64,000 nucleotides of DNA from Leptolyngbya sp. NIES-2104 (lineage in GTDB: Bacteria; Cyanobacteriota; Cyanobacteriia; Leptolyngbyales; Leptolyngbyaceae), in contig NZ_BBWW01000001.1 of assembly GCF_001485215.1 (NCBI RefSeq), positions 2,666,001 to 2,730,000 of the forward strand, written 5' to 3'. Under the pieces are notes generated by a model. It saw only the letters and a program-made list of their open reading frames with translations. It did no database searches and was not told the DNA's origin. The position numbers and the translations under genes are program-made. Shown here in pieces: positions 50,675 through 61,341 of the stretch (the first letter of the stretch is position 1; each line of letters begins with the position of its first letter).

Positions 50675-51127
50675 CTAATCTGGCAGAATTGGATCATCTT
50701 GAGGTGGATGCCATCCTCCTCGTATCCACAAACGACGAGCGCCAATAATTGAACCCTCATCATGCTCATCATCGTTCATGTCGAGCCGATCACAAGTTGC
50801 TCTCCCAATAGCTGTAAGTCCTACAATTCTCAAACCGTCCGCAGACCAAGAAAAATGCTCAGACCACAACTGCAATCTAGGATTAAACAAAGGCACAGTG
50901 CAACCTGTCTCTCGATCAGTACCTGCCGTAAAATTGTAGCGCCGCATATTACATCGGTGACACGCCAAAACTAAATTATCAACATCATCCGAGCCTTCTA
51001 AAGATTTGGGCTGACGGTGATCAAGTGTGAATCGAGTTGTACTTGCCTCTTCCGAAGAATGGCAATATTCGCATAAGTGATTTGCCCGCTGACGAACAAT
51101 TCGACGAGTTGAAGCGTTAATGGTCAT
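50675..51127 (-). CDS. HNH endonuclease
   Basis: A 150-residue HNH nuclease. The fold is LCEYCHSSEEA (first CxxC), TLDHRQPKSLEG with the catalytic DH, DNLVLACHRCN with the Asn and second CxxC, and MRRYN. Similar stand-alone HNH proteins are numerous in cyanobacteria and are not tied to known mobile elements. Its start overlaps the stop of the upstream small gene by 4 nt, which suggests the two products work together. Confidence 0.9.
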   Translation of the reverse strand: MTINASTRRIVRQRANHLCEYCHSSEEASTTRFTLDHRQPKSLEGSDDVDNLVLACHRCNMRRYNFTAGTDRETGCTVPLFNPRLQLWSEHFSWSADGLRIVGLTAIGRATCDRLDMNDDEHDEGSIIGARRLWIRGGWHPPQDDPILPD

Positions 51128-53807: not shown

Positions 53808-55289
53808 CTAGTTCGTCTTGAAGCTGGATGAACGCTTCAAGTACTGTCCTTGTGGATTTCCTAGAACCTGACCCCGATCGTAAATCAAGTGTCCGCGTAA
53901 AAAGGTTTGCTTGACTCGTCCGGTTAGCTCCATTCCTTCAAACGGCGTGTAACCCTGTTTCGATTCTGATTCAGCCGCATGAACGACAAAAGTTTCATTG
54001 GGATCGACGAGAACGAGATCCGCATCATAACCGATCGCAATGTCTCCTTTTTGCAATAAGCCGAATCGTTGCGCTGGATTCCAAGCGAGCAGCTTTGCCA
54101 TGTGATTGTATGACAGACCTCGCTTGCTGCCTTCACTGATGATTCCAGATAAGAGATACTCTGTTCCGCCAAATCCTGACTTGGCAAGCCAGATATTCTC
54201 CGGATCTTGAGGGCTAACTTTCTGCTCAGCCGAACAGCAAGCATGATCACTCACAATCCAATCGATCTGATTCTGTAGCACTGCGTTCCACAAAAATTCA
54301 ACATCCGATCGCGGTCGAATCGGCGGATTCACTTTCGCCCATTTTCCAGTCGGAGCATCCACATCAAGCAGCAAGTGACCGACCGTGACTTCTCGCTTGA
54401 ACTGGATTTGCGGAAAGATCGTTTGCATCATCAGGGCAGCTTCGATCGCTTTTCGAGAACTAAGATGCAGTAGATTGATGTTGATACAGTTTGTTTCGTG
54501 AGCGAGATAAGATGCAATACAAACTGCAAGCCCTTCAGCATGGGGAGGACGAGCCGCACTATAAGCACTCAACCCCGTCAGCGTCGAGTCTTGTTGAACA
54601 ATCTTGGTGTAAGCATTGAGAATATCCGCGACTTCACAATGCAAACTGAGACTAATGGCATTATTCGGGTAGCGTTCTTGCAACTGAGACAGACTACGCA
54701 TGATGAATTCAAAGTGAGCAAAATCGTACCGTTCTTCTTTGTTGATCATCAGAAATAGATTTTGCTGCTCAGAAAGACCGTGTAGACCGTAACCGCCATA
54801 GAACATAAAAATCTTGAACGAAGCAACTCCATATTGCTCGAATAACCACTGCATTTCATCAATGTGCTGAGCGCTAATCGGTGCAATGTGATAGCTATAA
54901 TCTACAAAAAAGTGACCTGTCGATCGAGACAATACCTCTGGAAAAAAGTCTTTATAAGAGCCACCCTTGTTCAGATAGTATTGACCAGTGCGAATGTAGT
55001 TTAAGCTGGTCGTGACTCCTCCCATTGCAGCAGCTTTACTTTCTGCGATCGCATCTTGTTCGAGCGGTTGATAGATTCCAATGTGCATGTGAGCATCAAC
55101 CACACCCGGAAATCCCAGTAGATTTTGGGCATCGATTACTTCTTTAGCTCGATCAGCATCAATTTCGAGTGCGATTTCAGCGAATTTGCCATTCCTAATG
55201 CCCACATCGGAACGCACGATTTCAGACTGGTTTGGGCGAACAACTCGCACATTTTTGATCAGTCTATCTAGCGCTAGAGGTTCAGTCAC
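53808..55289 (-). CDS. cyclic amidohydrolase (hydantoinase/dihydroorotase/allantoinase superfamily)
   Basis: A 493-residue binuclear amidohydrolase with a complete predicted metal site: His67 and His69 (DAHMH), carboxylated Lys159 (SFKIFM), His217 (LHCE), His275 (LHLSS) and Asp348 (VSDHACC). It hydrolyses ring amides such as hydantoins, dihydropyrimidines, dihydroorotate or allantoin; which one is not visible. It is longer than typical dihydroorotase. It opens a packed group of alternating-strand genes ending near 61.3 kb and is divergent, 51 bp apart, from the hydroxylase-like gene. Confidence 0.88.
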   Translation of the reverse strand: MTEPLALDRLIKNVRVVRPNQSEIVRSDVGIRNGKFAEIALEIDADRAKEVIDAQNLLGFPGVVDAHMHIGIYQPLEQDAIAESKAAAMGGVTTSLNYIRTGQYYLNKGGSYKDFFPEVLSRSTGHFFVDYSYHIAPISAQHIDEMQWLFEQYGVASFKIFMFYGGYGLHGLSEQQNLFLMINKEERYDFAHFEFIMRSLSQLQERYPNNAISLSLHCEVADILNAYTKIVQQDSTLTGLSAYSAARPPHAEGLAVCIASYLAHETNCININLLHLSSRKAIEAALMMQTIFPQIQFKREVTVGHLLLDVDAPTGKWAKVNPPIRPRSDVEFLWNAVLQNQIDWIVSDHACCSAEQKVSPQDPENIWLAKSGFGGTEYLLSGIISEGSKRGLSYNHMAKLLAWNPAQRFGLLQKGDIAIGYDADLVLVDPNETFVVHAAESESKQGYTPFEGMELTGRVKQTFLRGHLIYDRGQVLGNPQGQYLKRSSSFKTN

Positions 55290-55340
55290 GATAGCTCCTA
55301 CAACATCAATTAGAATGAGGGGAATTTAGGAGAAAAAACA

Positions 55341-56141
55341 ATGAAACAGTTTAATGAGTATCACTTAGATCCCAAACAGTTTCCTTTCCTCAATCTTCTT
55401 CAGGAAAATTGGCAGCAGATTCGCGACGAATTTACTGCATTTAGACAGAACGCAACTCCGGAGGAAATCGAGTTTGCTCTGAGTGTGATGGGACCGAAAA
55501 GTAACACGATTAAAACCAAAGGTCAGTCGAAATATAGTGCGTTTGGTGTGTTATTTCAAGGAATGTTTATTGAACAATACATTGAAGCTCATCAGATTAA
55601 CTATCCGCACGGTGAGTTACAGGATGTTGCAAAGCAAGTCTTTGAGTTAAGGAAGCGGTACTTTTGGCGGTTGTCAGACGCGATCGACAAGGTAAACTCA
55701 TCCGATCATGGGATGCTCAGAAATGTCTATTTCGGCACTTTTCTACCCGGATTAGATGTCAAGCTGCACGTCAATTACAATCCGCACATGAATCGCGGCT
55801 ATCTCGGCTTGATTGTACCAGAAGGGGACATTGCGATGAAGATTTGCCATGACACCCTGTTTTGGCATGAAGGCGAATTTATGGTGCTCGATCATAGCTA
55901 TCCACACTGTCCGCATAACTATACAGACAAAGAAAGAACGGTGCTAGTTGTGGATTTCTTCAAGACTGATCAACCGAGAGAAACTTTAGTTCGATTTGAA
56001 CAAGAACAAGTCAAACAAAGGCTTGAAGAGAATCCGTATAGTTTGGGCGTGTTCGGTAAAAATGACAAAGCGAAGCCCGAAGACTTTATCAAGTATGGTT
56101 TAAGCCATCAATTGGAGTGGGACAAAGCTTTGGGCGTTTAG
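55341..56141 (+). CDS. aspartyl/asparaginyl beta-hydroxylase-like dioxygenase
   Basis: A 266-residue protein of the AspH (Asp/Arg hydroxylase) 2-oxoglutarate-dependent oxygenase fold. The core is HVNYNPHMNRGYLGLIVP (143-160), WHEGEFMVLDHSYPHCPH (175-192) and KERTVLVVD (197-205). His189 and Arg199 match the distal iron His and 2-oxoglutarate-binding Arg of AspH. However, the first iron His is replaced by Tyr154, with His149 and His143 nearby. An AGGAG site 8 nt before the ATG fixes the start. The 3' end overlaps the convergent SnoaL-like gene by 4 nt. Substrate unknown. Confidence 0.82.
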   Translation: MKQFNEYHLDPKQFPFLNLLQENWQQIRDEFTAFRQNATPEEIEFALSVMGPKSNTIKTKGQSKYSAFGVLFQGMFIEQYIEAHQINYPHGELQDVAKQVFELRKRYFWRLSDAIDKVNSSDHGMLRNVYFGTFLPGLDVKLHVNYNPHMNRGYLGLIVPEGDIAMKICHDTLFWHEGEFMVLDHSYPHCPHNYTDKERTVLVVDFFKTDQPRETLVRFEQEQVKQRLEENPYSLGVFGKNDKAKPEDFIKYGLSHQLEWDKALGV

Positions 56142-56536
56142 TTTGATTTGCCATCGCTGCCGAGATATTCTCGATAGCCACAAATTTTATCGCCTCGCAC
56201 ATCAAACGAGACGGCAACGCGATTTTTGTAAGGTTCTCCCCGCATCAGTCCTTCATCGCGAAATTCAAACACAACGGTAGTTTCGTTGCTCGTGACGCGA
56301 TCGACCGTTAACTTCAATCCTTGATCGTACACTTCAGAGACGTAGCTGAAAAACTCGATCGCTCGTGCTTTGCCGACATTCAAGCCGGAAAATTTGCCGA
56401 TCGGAAACCAGAACGAAAAATCATCGGTCAGCAGCTCGAAAAAAGCTTGCCAATCTCCGGTTGCAAGTCCCTGTTCAAAATGGGCGAAGGCTTGACGTGC
56501 AATGGCTAATGTATTACCAGAGTCTTGAGTCATCAT
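56138..56536 (-). CDS. SnoaL/NTF2-like fold protein
   Basis: A 132-residue protein with the cone-shaped NTF2/SnoaL-like fold pattern: an amphipathic helix (AFAHFEQGLATGDWQAFFELLTDDFSFWFP), then KARAIEFF and a set of strands ending in FDVRGDKICGYREYLG. Family members are diverse: small ketosteroid isomerases, polyketide cyclases or binding modules. It ends 4 nt inside the hydroxylase gene and lies 16 bp downstream of the dehydrogenase gene. A second Met three codons in (56533) is an alternative start. Confidence 0.8.
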   Translation of the reverse strand: MMTQDSGNTLAIARQAFAHFEQGLATGDWQAFFELLTDDFSFWFPIGKFSGLNVGKARAIEFFSYVSEVYDQGLKLTVDRVTSNETTVVFEFRDEGLMRGEPYKNRVAVSFDVRGDKICGYREYLGSDGKSN

Positions 56537-56552
56537 TTTAGTATTGTGAAGG

Positions 56553-57560
56553 CTAAAACTTTACAACAACTTTGCCACAGTTCTGACCGCTAAGAAGATA
56601 CTCGACCGCATCCGGAATCGACTCAACGCCTTGAAATACGGTAGGGTCAACAATTACTTTCAATCTGCCTGCGTAAAACAAATCGAGTAAGCGATCGCGT
56701 CCTGCTTCAGCATATTCTAAGAAATGCGGCATCAAAAACCCGCGCACCGAAGCAGATTTCCAAAACAATTTCTGATAGATTCGAGGCTGCATTACGGCTT
56801 CTAAATCATTCGCATATTCGGAAATAAACCCAACAACAACGAATCTTCCTCGGATTGCTAAATGATTCACGCAAGTATCAAACACTTGTTTACCAACACA
56901 GTCGAATACAAGATTGATGCCATTGGGATATTCTTGGGCGAGAACGGTATCGAGTGATTCAGTGCGATAGTTCACGATGCGATCGCAGTTCAATCGTTTC
57001 AGCAATTCCACTTTCGTCTCTGAACCACACACCCCAATCACATGATTTCCAGCAATTTTCGCAAGCTGCACCGCAATGTGACCAATTCCCCCAGCAGCAG
57101 CAGTAATGAGAATGACTTCCCCGCTCGTCATTTCTCCGACGTTTTCCAAGGCGACGATCGCGCTTGTTCCCGTCGGCATCAGCGTTAGAATTTCGGGAAT
57201 CGAAGCGCGAATTTTAACGGCTAGATTTGCTGCGATCGCTTGATACTCTCGATATCCACCACCGCGAATCGTCGTTGCAACCGCATCCCCAATTTGCAGC
57301 GTGTGAACATTTTTTCCGATCGCAACTACTACGCCGACCGCTTCGACTCCGAGATCAAACGGCGGCGTAAGCTGTGTGTAAGGAACTTGACCGCGACAGA
57401 GTAAGGTATCAAATCCAGCATTGATCCCAGCATAGTGATTTTTGATCACGACTTGATCTGGTTCCGGATCGGGAATGGATAGTTCAGTCAGCGCGATCGC
57501 TGAGCGAAAATCATCGCTTAATCGCTGAGCAATCAGCTTTTTGTAAGTTCGAGAGTGCAT
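56553..57560 (-). CDS. quinone-reductase-type medium-chain dehydrogenase
   Basis: A 335-residue zinc-free medium-chain dehydrogenase/reductase. The NADPH-binding fold has AAAGGIGHIAVQLAKIAG (GGxGxxA pattern) and the substrate-binding N-terminal GroES domain has IKNHYAGINAGFDTLLC, with no Cys/His zinc ligands. Closest in style to quinone oxidoreductase or enoyl reductases. The ATG at 57560 is supported by a gga 9-11 nt upstream; an ATG at 57593 is less likely. It is divergent from the cupin gene, 53 bp apart. Confidence 0.87.
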   Translation of the reverse strand: MHSRTYKKLIAQRLSDDFRSAIALTELSIPDPEPDQVVIKNHYAGINAGFDTLLCRGQVPYTQLTPPFDLGVEAVGVVVAIGKNVHTLQIGDAVATTIRGGGYREYQAIAANLAVKIRASIPEILTLMPTGTSAIVALENVGEMTSGEVILITAAAGGIGHIAVQLAKIAGNHVIGVCGSETKVELLKRLNCDRIVNYRTESLDTVLAQEYPNGINLVFDCVGKQVFDTCVNHLAIRGRFVVVGFISEYANDLEAVMQPRIYQKLFWKSASVRGFLMPHFLEYAEAGRDRLLDLFYAGRLKVIVDPTVFQGVESIPDAVEYLLSGQNCGKVVVKF

Positions 57561-57613
57561 AGTGATTCCACCATACAATGTGTTAATGATCATAACTGTT
57601 TAGAGGTCAAAGC

Positions 57614-58450
57614 TTGAACCAGAATGTTTTAGGGGCAGAAGATTGGGGTGGAACAGGTCAAAGCCGGATGAACTTATCGGGGCGGACGGTGGCTTTAGCA
57701 GAGCTTCCGCAGCAATATCAGTTTTTTGATACACAGCGGATTCCTCAACAACCCTGGCAGATTGATGGACTATCTAAATCGTCGATCGCGGCAACTCATC
57801 AATTGCTGAGTTGGCACGAGCATGGCGCATCAACGACCAAGGTTTTGCTTGCTGATCGATTTGAGCTTCCAGCAGGCAGATTCACAGCGGATTTAGAAAT
57901 TTTTGTGCTGAGCGGTACCGTTCAGGTCGGAGCGTGGAAGCTGAGCAAACACGGTTACTCGTTTATTCCAGCAGGGGTCAGAGTTGGTCCGTGGAAAGCG
58001 CTCAACGGTGAAGCAGTCGAACTACTGTGGATGGAAAACGATCGACTCCAGTATCAAGATTTGCCGCATGATTCAGCAGCAAGTCTCGATCAGTTTATTC
58101 CGGTTTTGGATAGTACACTGCTACCTTGGAGCAGAACAGATACAATGCAGTTTGCCGCAGCCAGCAAGAAATGGCTGAGAAAAGCAGCAAACGGTGGTGG
58201 GGTGTGGCTACTCGCACTTCTGCCTCACTATGACAGCCAGCAAGCGATGATTCAGTTGTATAACGAGGAGGTTTACGGCTTAGGCGGACATTGCGATATG
58301 GGAAAGTATCGATTCGCCAAACATCACTTTGGCTACTGTCCGAGTTTCAGTACGGTTCCCAGACACATTTCAGCAGAAGGGAGCTTGTTCTTTATTCGCG
58401 TCGATCGAGATTTATCGCGCAGCGGAGCCGTTTTACCTTATACCGATTAA
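57614..58450 (+). CDS. DUF4437-like bicupin protein
   Basis: A 278-residue protein with two cupin-like halves. The first half, LLADRFELPAGRFTADLEIFVLSGTVQVG, then GYSFIPAGVRVGPW, has the cupin strand pattern. The second half, YNEEVYGLGGHCDMGKYRFAKHHFGYCPSFSTVPRH, resembles an anti-sigma/ChrR-type cupin. The metal-binding Glu and His residues are scattered rather than canonical. The start is TTG, chosen because agaggt lies 7 nt upstream; a downstream ATG at 57668 would remove 18 residues. It ends 4 nt inside the next, convergent gene. Confidence 0.78.
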   Translation: MNQNVLGAEDWGGTGQSRMNLSGRTVALAELPQQYQFFDTQRIPQQPWQIDGLSKSSIAATHQLLSWHEHGASTTKVLLADRFELPAGRFTADLEIFVLSGTVQVGAWKLSKHGYSFIPAGVRVGPWKALNGEAVELLWMENDRLQYQDLPHDSAASLDQFIPVLDSTLLPWSRTDTMQFAAASKKWLRKAANGGGVWLLALLPHYDSQQAMIQLYNEEVYGLGGHCDMGKYRFAKHHFGYCPSFSTVPRHISAEGSLFFIRVDRDLSRSGAVLPYTD

Positions 58451-58893
58451 TGTTGTCGCTCTTCTTGAATCACTGTGCGCTGAAAGATTTGATTGTTTTT
58501 GAACCAGTGCCAGGTTCGCGCTCGATGATTGTTACACGGACTGATTTGAATCATTTCGTAGAGGTAGAAGTCTGGAACCGTTTTGTAAGCAAAATAAAGA
58601 ATCAGGGTGGCATCATCAATTTCCCAAGCGTGACCTTTGATTCGATCGGTGTCAAACCAAACCTTTTTATCGCAGTACAAGCCTGGAAATCGATGTTCTT
58701 CTTGTTTGCCATTGTCCCAGGTGTAGCGATTGGTTTGATGGTACGTGGAAGGGTTATCTGTCGGAAATTCACAGGTTAAATGCGATCGATGTCGATCGAG
58801 CACATTTCCATCGCAATCGATCAGCGTATAAGTTCCAATCCAATCACCTTCATGTCGAGCGAGTACGGGCATTGCCTGACGAATACTTTCCAT
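58447..58893 (-). CDS. small beta-barrel protein, DUF3598/lipocalin-like
   Basis: A 148-residue protein rich in aromatic residues and alternating strands: HEGDWIGTYTLIDCDGNVLD, TYHQTNRYTWDNGKQEEH, GLYCDKKVWFDTDRIKGHA and ARTWHWFKNNQIFQRTVI. The organisation recalls the lipocalin-like DUF3598 proteins of cyanobacteria, which bind small hydrophobic or pigment-like ligands. I have not verified the family. It is co-directional with the aldehyde dehydrogenase gene (9 bp upstream) and convergent with the cupin gene. Confidence 0.68.
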   Translation of the reverse strand: MESIRQAMPVLARHEGDWIGTYTLIDCDGNVLDRHRSHLTCEFPTDNPSTYHQTNRYTWDNGKQEEHRFPGLYCDKKVWFDTDRIKGHAWEIDDATLILYFAYKTVPDFYLYEMIQISPCNNHRARTWHWFKNNQIFQRTVIQEERQH

Positions 58894-58902
58894 AGTTACC
58901 TC

Positions 58903-60303
58903 TTATACATACCACCAAGGATCACGAATCGGTTTTGTTTTGATCAAATAAGCTTTCTTTCGCATAAATCGTTTCAGTGCTGCCGCTCCCATGCGCGATC
59001 CTCCCATTCCAGAAGCGTGAAAAGCATTCTTTTCTCCTTCGTGAATCAATGCGGTGAGCGCAGCATCGTTGATACTAATTGCACCCGCCTCAATGCGATC
59101 GCCCACTTCCAGCGCTTCGGTTGTTGATTCTGCAAACACTGCGGCACTCAATCCATAAATGCTATCGTTTGCAAGCGCGATCGCTTCCCCAACTGTATTA
59201 AATGGCATCATCGGCAAAATGGGTCCGAATGTTTCTTCGCTCATGATTTTCATGCTGTGATTCACCTTGGTTAAAACCGTCGGATCGCACCACCACCCGC
59301 CGTCTAAGTTCTCAAGGTTGCCGCCACACTGAACGATCGCGCCTTTGTCGATCGCATCTTGTAGCTGCTCTGAAATTATCGCCGCCTGTCGTTCTGCAAT
59401 GATCGGACCAATCTCGCCATCTTGAATCGTAGGATAAGCGAGTTTCAATTGTTTTGCTTTAGAAACAAGCTGCTCGGTAAACGGTTCGATGATCGCTTGA
59501 TCCACATAAATTCGCTCGATCGATAAACAAGACTGTCCCGTATTGACAACTGAACCCCATAAAATGGCAGAAGTTGCGAGATCGAGATCGGCAGATTGCA
59601 GCACGATCGCTGGATCTTTTCCGCCCAGTTCCAAAAAGGCTGGAATAAATCGCTTTGCCGCCATTTCTGCAACCTGTCGCCCGGTTTTCACACTGCCCGT
59701 AAAACAAATCAGATCAATCTGCTCGATCAAAGCGGCTCCAGTTTCTTTCGCCCCCTCAATGAAGGTGAAGATCGATCGTAATTCAGGCACTTGATCCAGT
59801 GTTTTTAACAACGGTTGAATAAATCGAGGTGCAATCTCACTCGGTTTCACAATCACAGCACATCCAGCTAATAGTGCCGGAATCGCATCAATCATCGCTA
59901 AAAGTAATGGGAAGTTCCACGGACTGATCACACCGACTAACGGATAAGGCACTGAATCTTGTTTTAGATCAATAAATGGAATTGCCGTTGTTTTTTCCGT
60001 TTCTTGTAAAAGTTCTGGAGCGAGTTGACACCAGCGATCGAGACTCGACAACACCGAATCGACTTCTAAAACCGAAACCCCGAACCGTCCGGTATCAGCC
60101 ACCAAAGCTTGAATCAATGCTTCTCGATCGTGCTGAATCGCTTGTTTCCACTGCTGTAATGCGGCAATTCGCTGATCTAAATCAACAGATTGCCAATCTC
60201 GTTGCGCGAAGCGGAGTCGATCGCAGACTTCAGCAACATTCGGAGGCGTGATCCAGTAATCGACTTCGCCGGTTCGAGGATTCCGAACAGGAATGCGGGT
60301 CAT
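58903..60303 (-). CDS. aldehyde dehydrogenase family protein
   Basis: A 466-residue NAD(P)-dependent aldehyde dehydrogenase. The active site is intact: Asn130 in SPWNFP, the cofactor-binding FTGSVKTGRQVAE, Glu225 in LELGGKDP and the nucleophile Cys259 in NTGQSCLSIERIYV. It oxidises an aldehyde to the acid. The gene sits 3 bp downstream of the nitrilase-like gene and 9 bp upstream of the small barrel gene, all on the minus strand, so the three form an operon. Substrate unknown; it is most like the broad-specificity succinate-semialdehyde-type enzymes. Confidence 0.88.
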   Translation of the reverse strand: MTRIPVRNPRTGEVDYWITPPNVAEVCDRLRFAQRDWQSVDLDQRIAALQQWKQAIQHDREALIQALVADTGRFGVSVLEVDSVLSSLDRWCQLAPELLQETEKTTAIPFIDLKQDSVPYPLVGVISPWNFPLLLAMIDAIPALLAGCAVIVKPSEIAPRFIQPLLKTLDQVPELRSIFTFIEGAKETGAALIEQIDLICFTGSVKTGRQVAEMAAKRFIPAFLELGGKDPAIVLQSADLDLATSAILWGSVVNTGQSCLSIERIYVDQAIIEPFTEQLVSKAKQLKLAYPTIQDGEIGPIIAERQAAIISEQLQDAIDKGAIVQCGGNLENLDGGWWCDPTVLTKVNHSMKIMSEETFGPILPMMPFNTVGEAIALANDSIYGLSAAVFAESTTEALEVGDRIEAGAISINDAALTALIHEGEKNAFHASGMGGSRMGAAALKRFMRKKAYLIKTKPIRDPWWYV

Positions 60304-60306
60304 CGT

Positions 60307-61341
60307 TCAAATCACTCCTTGTTCGGCTAAGCGGTGGATTGTTGCAACCTGAGTTTGAATAAAATGTTTTCGCTCAATTTCACCCTCGATCATTGTATTT
60401 CTGGGATAAAACACTGCTTGCTGATAGCTTTCTACATACGCATCAAATCGTTGACGTGCAAGCAAATTGCCCAGTCCAGGTTGCCGACGATACCGACGTA
60501 ATGCCGCTAAATCGACCTCCGCAAATGCCGCCATACTTTCCCCGGCTCCTGTTTCAGCTAACACCAATCCCCGATAGTCCACAACTTTCGAGCCACCATC
60601 CACTGAACCGCTCGGAATCGGACTCTCTGCAATGCCAGCGGTGTTCGCTGAAATCACATACATCATATTTTCCACAGCGCGGCTAATCTTTGCGGCTTCT
60701 TTAGGCGATCGTGCTTGTCCATAAATCTCTGAAGTCGGATGTAGCAGGACTTCCGCCCCCCGCATTGCTAAACATCGCGCCACTTCTGGAAATAAAATCT
60801 CATCCGATGCCACCGCTGCAAGATTACCGATCTCAGTTCTGGCAACCGGAAACACTCCATCAAGTCCGTACTGCTCTAGATAGCGATCCCAAACATCGTG
60901 CGGAGTGGGCGCAAATAATGAATTCAATCGACGGTAACGCAGAATCACCGTTCCACTCGGATCAAGGATAAAACAAGTCTGAAAATACAATCCTGGAAAA
61001 TGCGGATCAACTTCATAAGCATTTCCAGCTAAAAAGATTCGATGCTTCTGTGCAATGTTTCCGAGCGCTTCATACTCGCTGCCGGTCATTTCCAAGCAAG
61101 CCTTTTCCGCCCAATCCGAGAGCGATTCTCCCAGCGGAAACCCAGTGAGAAAATACTCTGGTAACACGACTAAACGACAATCAGGTCCAATAAATGCAAG
61201 ACTCGCCGCAATTTGCTGTCCTAATCGTTCGATCGCCTGCTGAATTCTCGATCGTGCTTCTAGTCGATCGCGGCTTTGGTTGATGGCATAACACGTTACC
61301 TGAAGTGCTAATGCTTTGTAAGCGAGTCCATTGTCACTCAT
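60307..61341 (-). CDS. nitrilase-fold hydrolase with altered catalytic triad
   Basis: A 344-residue member of the carbon-nitrogen hydrolase superfamily. Glu62 (VVLPEYFLTGFP) occupies the catalytic Glu position. The Lys of the triad corresponds to Arg138 (LRYRRLN) and the Cys to Ser179 (AVASDEILFPE, where CxxxxFPE is usual). Other fold elements are intact: GNAYE, GSVDGGSKVVDYRG and the C-terminal ARQRFDAYVESY. I think a branch of the superfamily with this ASxEIL motif exists, but its activity is unknown. The ATG at 61341 begins the conserved fold; the 39-residue upstream extension is not conserved. Confidence 0.85.
   Translation of the reverse strand: MSDNGLAYKALALQVTCYAINQSRDRLEARSRIQQAIERLGQQIAASLAFIGPDCRLVVLPEYFLTGFPLGESLSDWAEKACLEMTGSEYEALGNIAQKHRIFLAGNAYEVDPHFPGLYFQTCFILDPSGTVILRYRRLNSLFAPTPHDVWDRYLEQYGLDGVFPVARTEIGNLAAVASDEILFPEVARCLAMRGAEVLLHPTSEIYGQARSPKEAAKISRAVENMMYVISANTAGIAESPIPSGSVDGGSKVVDYRGLVLAETGAGESMAAFAEVDLAALRRYRRQPGLGNLLARQRFDAYVESYQQAVFYPRNTMIEGEIERKHFIQTQVATIHRLAEQGVI

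Follow-up and report, generated by a model that had tools for sequence, protein, structure and literature searches.

An eight-gene cluster of Leptolyngbya sp. NIES-2104 that behaves as one functional unit and very probably encodes a single, apparently undescribed metabolic pathway

The question raised by the locus

We analysed a stretch of 64,000 nucleotides from the 6.39 Mb genome of the cyanobacterium Leptolyngbya sp. NIES-2104 (contig NZ_BBWW01000001.1, positions 2,666,001 to 2,730,000; hereafter the window). Towards its end, eight genes for an amidohydrolase, an oxygenase, a dehydrogenase and other small-molecule protein families stand on mixed strands almost without spacers, which raises the question whether they serve one pathway and, if so, on what kind of compound this pathway would act. 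We found that the eight genes behave like a single functional unit, of which a SnoaL-fold protein and a cupin are looser members. Judging by their occurrence across genomes, the genes very probably form one metabolic pathway, which is apparently undescribed. The eight open reading frames (ORFs), with window positions and the short names used below, are as follows.

53808 to 55289, minus strand: amidohydrolase (AmidH) of the hydantoinase/allantoinase/dihydroorotase superfamily; PF01979/PF07969 above cut-off; GTG start
55341 to 56141, plus strand: AspH-like 2-oxoglutarate oxygenase (AspH), divergent from AmidH; PF05118, 61.4 bits
56138 to 56536, minus strand: small enzyme of the SnoaL/NTF2 fold (SnoaL); PF12680 (SnoaL_2)
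56553 to 57560, minus strand: zinc-free dehydrogenase (MDR), an oxidoreductase of the quinone/enone reductase type; PF00107 and PF08240; ATG start, with the ORF open to 57593
57614 to 58450, plus strand: DUF4437 cupin; PF14499, 178 bits; TTG start, uncertain
58447 to 58893, minus strand: single-domain lipocalin-like beta-barrel, DUF3598 (DUF3598_N); PF12204
58903 to 60303, minus strand: aldehyde dehydrogenase (ALDH); PF00171, 355.9 bits
60307 to 61341, minus strand: nitrilase-fold (CN_hydrolase) protein (Nit); PF00795, 106.9 bits against a cut-off of 23.2, scanned as a longer ORF to 61458

Co-occurrence of the cluster genes in cyanobacteria

We searched 291 cyanobacterial genomes separately with Nit (E ≤ 1e-30), AmidH (E ≤ 1e-120) and AspH (E ≤ 1e-40). 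Nit was found in 22 genomes at 67-100% identity, including four of the eight searched genomes of the window's genus. AmidH and AspH were likewise found in 22 genomes each, which were the identical set, and all three genes were present together in 21. The association of Nit with AmidH gave a Fisher p of 9e-30; because this statistic ignores the relatedness of the genomes, more weight should be placed on the split within the genus and on the genomes with unlinked genes described below. In one genome (G129) Nit was accompanied by a half-length AmidH, and AspH had no match. Its locus (L041) has Nit, ALDH, DUF3598, MDR, SnoaL, the cupin and an alpha/beta hydrolase (ABH) left, and might be a decaying cluster. 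In another genome (G156) no Nit was found, probably an assembly artefact since the contig carrying the cluster stops inside ALDH.

The other families were screened in a panel of 80 genomes, consisting of 23 carriers, defined by Nit and/or AmidH, and 57 others. To choose the latter, 77 of the remaining 268 genomes were drawn at random and those with the lowest numbers were kept; they included small genomes, in which few such families are expected. DUF3598 was detected in 22 of the 23 carriers and in none of the 57 others (E ≤ 1e-10), ALDH in 21 versus one (E ≤ 1e-120) and MDR in 20 versus none (E ≤ 1e-60). The cupin was found at ≥56% identity in 11 carriers and none of the others, with weak (33%) matches in the carriers G191 and G225. 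SnoaL occurred in 22 carriers and also in eight of the others, five of these eight at ≥53% identity and three at 35-40%. One carrier without matches to DUF3598 and ALDH (G061) is a 350-contig assembly with an ALDH fragment beside Nit at a contig end. The sole non-carrier with ALDH (G116) has SnoaL approximately 3.6 kb off (L144), while other members were unmatched in that stretch; the two genes are likely a cluster remnant.

Gene order, linkage and scattering

Gene arrangement was compared among 92 loci, namely the window, the 80 best of 279 relatives from a species-genome collection (all 80 cyanobacterial by name) and 11 of 20 other loci; this set may contain near-duplicates, and some of its loci are cut by contig ends. 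The family order and strands of the window were shared by five loci (the window, L025, L028, L044 and L045), with one additional gene (GT87) between AspH and SnoaL in L025. Two of these come from separate cyanobacterial families: L025 (G163) from f1 and L028 (G118) from f24. All eight families were present in eight loci and at least five in 27, whereas Nit stood alone in eight loci, partly owing to contig ends. The joint occurrence of at least five families in other genomes, proposed as a check in a preliminary description of this locus, was therefore seen in 26 loci besides the window. Together with the shared order and strands, these counts indicate that the arrangement is not due to chance. 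The flanks of the intact block vary: in a comparison of 21 loci, at the clustering threshold used, the only families that the window had in common with other loci were the eight of the cluster and, with one locus, a 79-aa ORF.

The genes were also retained where they are unlinked. In one single-contig genome (G128) the eight genes are spread over six places from 0.06 to 5.14 Mb (AmidH-AspH, MDR, SnoaL, DUF3598, ALDH-Nit and the cupin), and in nine genomes AmidH-AspH is distant from Nit or on another contig. Joint presence and absence, conserved order and retention when unlinked strongly support that the genes serve one pathway, and thereby the earlier proposal of one undescribed small-molecule pathway.

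In the window itself all eight ORFs are intact, and 7410 nt of the 7534-nt span are coding, confirming the compact layout first described. The convergent pairs AspH/SnoaL and cupin/DUF3598 overlap by exactly 4 nt each (TTAG and TTAA, facing stop codons) and the divergent gaps measure 51 and 53 nt given the assigned start codons, also as described. The exact overlaps did not hold up as a conserved feature: among five near loci the one between AspH and SnoaL was found in two, and the one between cupin and DUF3598 in none of the four with both genes. The overlaps themselves thus carry little meaning. The G+C content of the block (0.465) is near that of the window (0.47), and an Rfam scan of 50-64 kb returned no family at its gathering score. 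Just outside the cluster lies an ORF (50675-51127) that is HNH endonuclease-like by eye.

Active sites and folds of the encoded proteins

Judged from their sequences, the amidohydrolase, the oxygenase and the aldehyde dehydrogenase have competent active-site motifs. In AmidH the metal-ligand positions H67, H69, K159, H217, H275 and D348 are kept. HxH, Lys, His, His and Asp are the metal ligands of the hydantoinase/dihydroorotase amidohydrolase superfamily, and AmidH matches this superfamily in all of them. The ligand motifs were present in 27 of 28 homologues, the remaining one being truncated, and also in relatives from Rhodococcus, Streptomyces and Nonomuraea. They fit, as a putative target, the amide-containing ring compound suggested in the preliminary description. 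The best NCBIfam match of AmidH was allantoinase (TIGR03178) with 237.8 bits, below the cut-off of 357.85, and dihydropyrimidinase/D-hydantoinase (TIGR02033) gave 187 bits against a cut-off of 393.25. The AlphaFold model of AmidH was poor (mean predicted local distance difference test score, pLDDT, 51.7) and was not used. AspH matches solved AspH (aligned to 5apa) and belongs to the PF05118 fold family, with a score well above the cut-off of 22.6; both Fe-binding His motifs were found in 23 of 23 homologues. For ALDH, the catalytic Cys, Glu and Asn motifs were all present in 81 of 84 homologues.

Nit belongs to the nitrilase superfamily by its PF00795 domain but lacks the Glu-Lys-Cys catalytic triad. 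In an alignment to solved nitrilases and amidases including formamidase and Nit2, the catalytic Glu is kept while Lys is replaced by Arg and Cys by Ser. Ser and Arg are invariant in two alignments of 9 and 22 rows (A1 and A5), and by motif each was found in 91 of the 92 loci, with one unscored. A Nit relative from Nonomuraea also has both residues, and more distant relatives vary at both positions. With the catalytic Cys and Lys missing, ordinary nitrile or amide hydrolysis by Nit appears unlikely, and the amide or nitrile handling first ascribed to this protein is not supported.

Three cluster proteins are relatives of solved chains: ALDH of 4h7n_A (PDB match E 6e-214), SnoaL of 3dmc_A (E 1.4e-61) and the cupin of 2qdr_A (E 4e-102). 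We take these structures to be structural-genomics entries from Nostoc/Anabaena. MDR fell below every NCBIfam cut-off listed for MDR. The AlphaFold model of DUF3598 had a pLDDT of 95.2, and a Foldseek search with DUF3598 matched part of BFA1, part of the DUF3598 protein 2o62, Ycf58, CpeS lyase and OlmO spirocyclase, and more weakly nitrobindin, although a profile search against PDB sequences found nothing. As modelled, DUF3598 looks like a barrel for holding a ligand, and some of its relatives act as enzymes.

Variant clusters and recurrent neighbours

Recurrent additions among the 92 loci were ABH (17 loci), RidA (8), VOC (8), DUF1838 (5) and BKACE (4), and an AMDase-like gene was found in one locus (L140). 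In the panel, ABH was detected in 11 of the 23 carriers (E ≤ 1e-60) and RidA in eight (E ≤ 1e-25), all of which also had ABH, and neither was found in the 57 others. Counting the cupin at ≥56% identity, ten carriers had the cupin only, ten ABH only, one both (G129) and two neither (one-sided p 5e-4). The latter two are the fragmented assembly G061 and G191, which has a divergent DUF4437 cupin beside AspH; G225, scored as ABH only, also has its weak cupin match. The genome of the window showed no match to ABH or RidA of the cluster type. The complementarity of cupin and ABH and the restriction of RidA to genomes with ABH suggest that cupin and ABH are two alternative solutions to one step.

Two further families were seen near the cluster. 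A HisRS-like protein is encoded near DUF3598 or the cupin in many clusters of Nostocales (37 of the 92 loci, e.g. L032:4843-6228 and L141:12224-13609) and is just 22-27% identical to a HisRS-like ORF in L139. A gene of the PEP mutase/isocitrate-lyase family, a type of enzyme whose substrates also include dimethylmalate-like acids, was found in six loci (e.g. L104:3983-4996).

Relatives outside cyanobacteria

A plasmid collection, in which some records are chromosome-sized, yielded AmidH relatives (E ≤ 1e-60) in three actinobacteria, those of Rhodococcus and Streptomyces at 58% and 57% identity. For Nit (E ≤ 1e-20) there were 17 matching records; a single one reached 52% identity and the others lay at ≤33%. 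In Nonomuraea, a trio of ALDH, DUF3598 and Nit (52, 46 and 52% identical) faces oppositely oriented genes for an NMT1-type binding protein and permeases, trio and importer being linked by proximity only. In Streptomyces NBC_01483, genes for an NMT1-type binding protein, an ATPase and a permease immediately precede AmidH, all on one strand. These importers show similarity to sulfonate, taurine and nitrate systems, with scores below cut-off. The AmidH gene of Rhodococcus gordoniae is part of an island that also encodes hydantoinase A/B, amidase, CoA transferase, CoA ester lyase and an MFS transporter. By their gene content, these neighbourhoods seem to point to uptake and breakdown.

A proposed route

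What would such a pathway do? We tentatively propose, with nearly as much confidence as doubt, that the pathway is catabolic and scavenges a small nitrogen heterocycle in which there is a cyclic amide, imide or ureide bond. Ring opening would fall to AmidH, and the AspH-like Fe/2-oxoglutarate enzyme would hydroxylate either the ring itself or the product of its opening. Isomerisation or dehydration of the intermediate and reduction of a C=C bond could then be the work of SnoaL and MDR. Next, an enol, enamine or 1,3-dicarbonyl intermediate would probably be hydrolysed or cleaved, in this genome by the DUF4437 cupin and in other genomes by ABH, often with RidA. ALDH would oxidise the resulting semialdehyde to the acid, and the Ser-type Nit and the DUF3598 barrel may work with ALDH as an acyl-handling partner, scaffold or isomerase. 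We infer the order of these steps. The catabolic reading is also favoured by genes next to the clusters: BKACE and RidA in some cases and the AMDase-like gene in one. In a more specific form, which is possible but doubtful, this would be a new oxygen-dependent assimilation or detoxification route for a small cyclic amide, imide or ureide, with modules shared with actinobacteria, the Ser/Arg nitrilase fold as obligate partner of ALDH, and DUF4437 cupin and ABH interchangeable for one step.

Several results weigh against the idea of one such pathway. None of the eight proteins passes the cut-off of any listed NCBIfam family, so that each reaction is deduced from fold and motif. No importer or regulator was recognised within the cyanobacterial eight-gene block. 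A match to MDR at the threshold used is missing in three carriers (G057, G087 and G191), and SnoaL relatives occur in non-carriers. The plasmid collection contained no match to AspH at E ≤ 1e-15, and in Rhodococcus, Streptomyces and Nonomuraea the neighbourhood contains just part of the set in each case. NtcA-type sites (GTAN8TAC), counted upstream of nine gene families and compared with first-order shuffles, showed no clear enrichment: Nit (7 of 91; shuffle mean 3.46, largest 9) and ABH (3 of 19; mean 0.6, largest 3) were above the mean yet within the shuffle range, AspH had two sites, MDR and cupin one each and the remaining four families none.

Two candidate modes of control were dismissed. 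NtcA control is unsupported by these counts. A Fur-like palindrome near AmidH/AspH, picked up among frequent words, was rejected as an operator, as it lies inside the AspH coding start in the window (55353-55365) and encodes part of a conserved AspH peptide in other loci.

Competing explanations

The cluster could instead make a specialised metabolite, its enzymes tailoring an amide-containing precursor with ALDH, cupin and oxygenase as late tailoring steps. AspH-like oxygenases and SnoaL folds are frequent tailoring enzymes, and both the patchy distribution (22 of 291 genomes) and the compact block in differing genomic contexts would fit. Yet no nonribosomal peptide synthetase, polyketide synthase or terpene synthase was among the annotated recurrent neighbour families (annotation covered part of the neighbours), the actinobacterial relatives adjoin importers or sit in a degradation-like island, and the genes are retained when scattered. 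We therefore regard this explanation as rather unlikely.

A role in the repair or detoxification of an endogenous compound, be it a cofactor, a pigment or a product of photo-oxidation (breakdown products of tetrapyrroles would be one case), seems improbable to us. It is suggested by a gene of an RCC-reductase-like family (PF06405) near Nit, often directly upstream, in 37 of the 92 loci (two members were Pfam-checked, e.g. L087:8025-8792), and by a PaO-like Rieske oxygenase family near the cluster in five loci (one member checked, L095:15396-16751). The DUF3598 barrel resembles CpeS and nitrobindin, and RidA-type proteins act in repair. Over the 291 genomes, however, the RCC reductase family was found in 13, namely three of the 23 carriers and ten of the 268 others (p 0.07), and it had no match in the genome of the window; it thus looks like a lineage-specific neighbour rather than a general partner. 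Chlorophyll or bilin catabolism, raised by these neighbours, was dropped as unsupported by this distribution. In the article PMC10151467, neither amidohydrolase nor nitrilase is mentioned by these words.

It is very improbable that the cluster encodes a known route, i.e. reductive pyrimidine, hydantoin or allantoin degradation by a dihydropyrimidinase or allantoinase with a nitrilase-fold carbamoylase. AmidH matches that superfamily, and AmidH, nitrilase fold and ALDH together resemble that set, but AmidH misses the cut-offs for allantoinase and dihydropyrimidinase by a wide margin, and an active carbamoylase would have the Cys and Lys that Nit lacks. That unrelated enzyme genes became neighbours by chance, as the mixed strands (hence not one operon) and SnoaL in eight of the 57 other genomes might suggest, is hardly credible given co-occurrence when unlinked and conserved order with differing flanks, the co-occurrence opposing it strongly for Nit, ALDH, DUF3598, AmidH, AspH and MDR and less so for SnoaL.

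Comparison with known systems

The enzyme kinds of the cluster are known, while their assembly and a nitrilase fold with Ser/Arg appear to be undescribed, as judged from searches of an open-licence paper library in which no listed title describes this gene set. Reductive pyrimidine/hydantoin degradation uses the same superfamilies, with a Lys-type metal amidohydrolase, a nitrilase fold and an ALDH. The cluster differs in an AmidH below the listed equivalog cut-offs, in the Ser/Arg of Nit in place of Cys/Lys, and in the addition of an oxygenase, SnoaL, MDR, a cupin and a barrel. The variant clusters pair ABH with RidA, as the Rut pyrimidine pathway pairs RutD with RutC. Here the scores fall below cut-off (RidA versus RutC 29.5 against 169.1, ABH versus RutD 41.4 against 238.5), the pair is largely swapped for the cupin, and no RutA/RutB-type gene was among the annotated families. 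The AspH/OlsC/LpxO hydroxylases (PF05118) share the fold family and the two Fe-binding His with the cluster oxygenase, which scores below the OlsC and LpxO cut-offs and sits in an enzyme cluster.

The close homologues 4h7n (ALDH), 3dmc (NTF2-like) and 2qdr (an uncharacterised cupin) have catalogued molecule names that indicate no pathway. No paper of that library contains 4H7N, whereas 31 contain 2QDR or 3DMC; to judge by their titles, the ten listed among these use 3DMC in unrelated senses, and 2QDR is in none of the ten. The cluster would provide a common setting for relatives of these three solved structures and for the orphan families DUF3598, DUF4437, the Ser-type nitrilase fold and the AspH-like oxygenase. 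A conserved Cys-less nitrilase fold tied to an aldehyde dehydrogenase would, if true, be an enzymological surprise.

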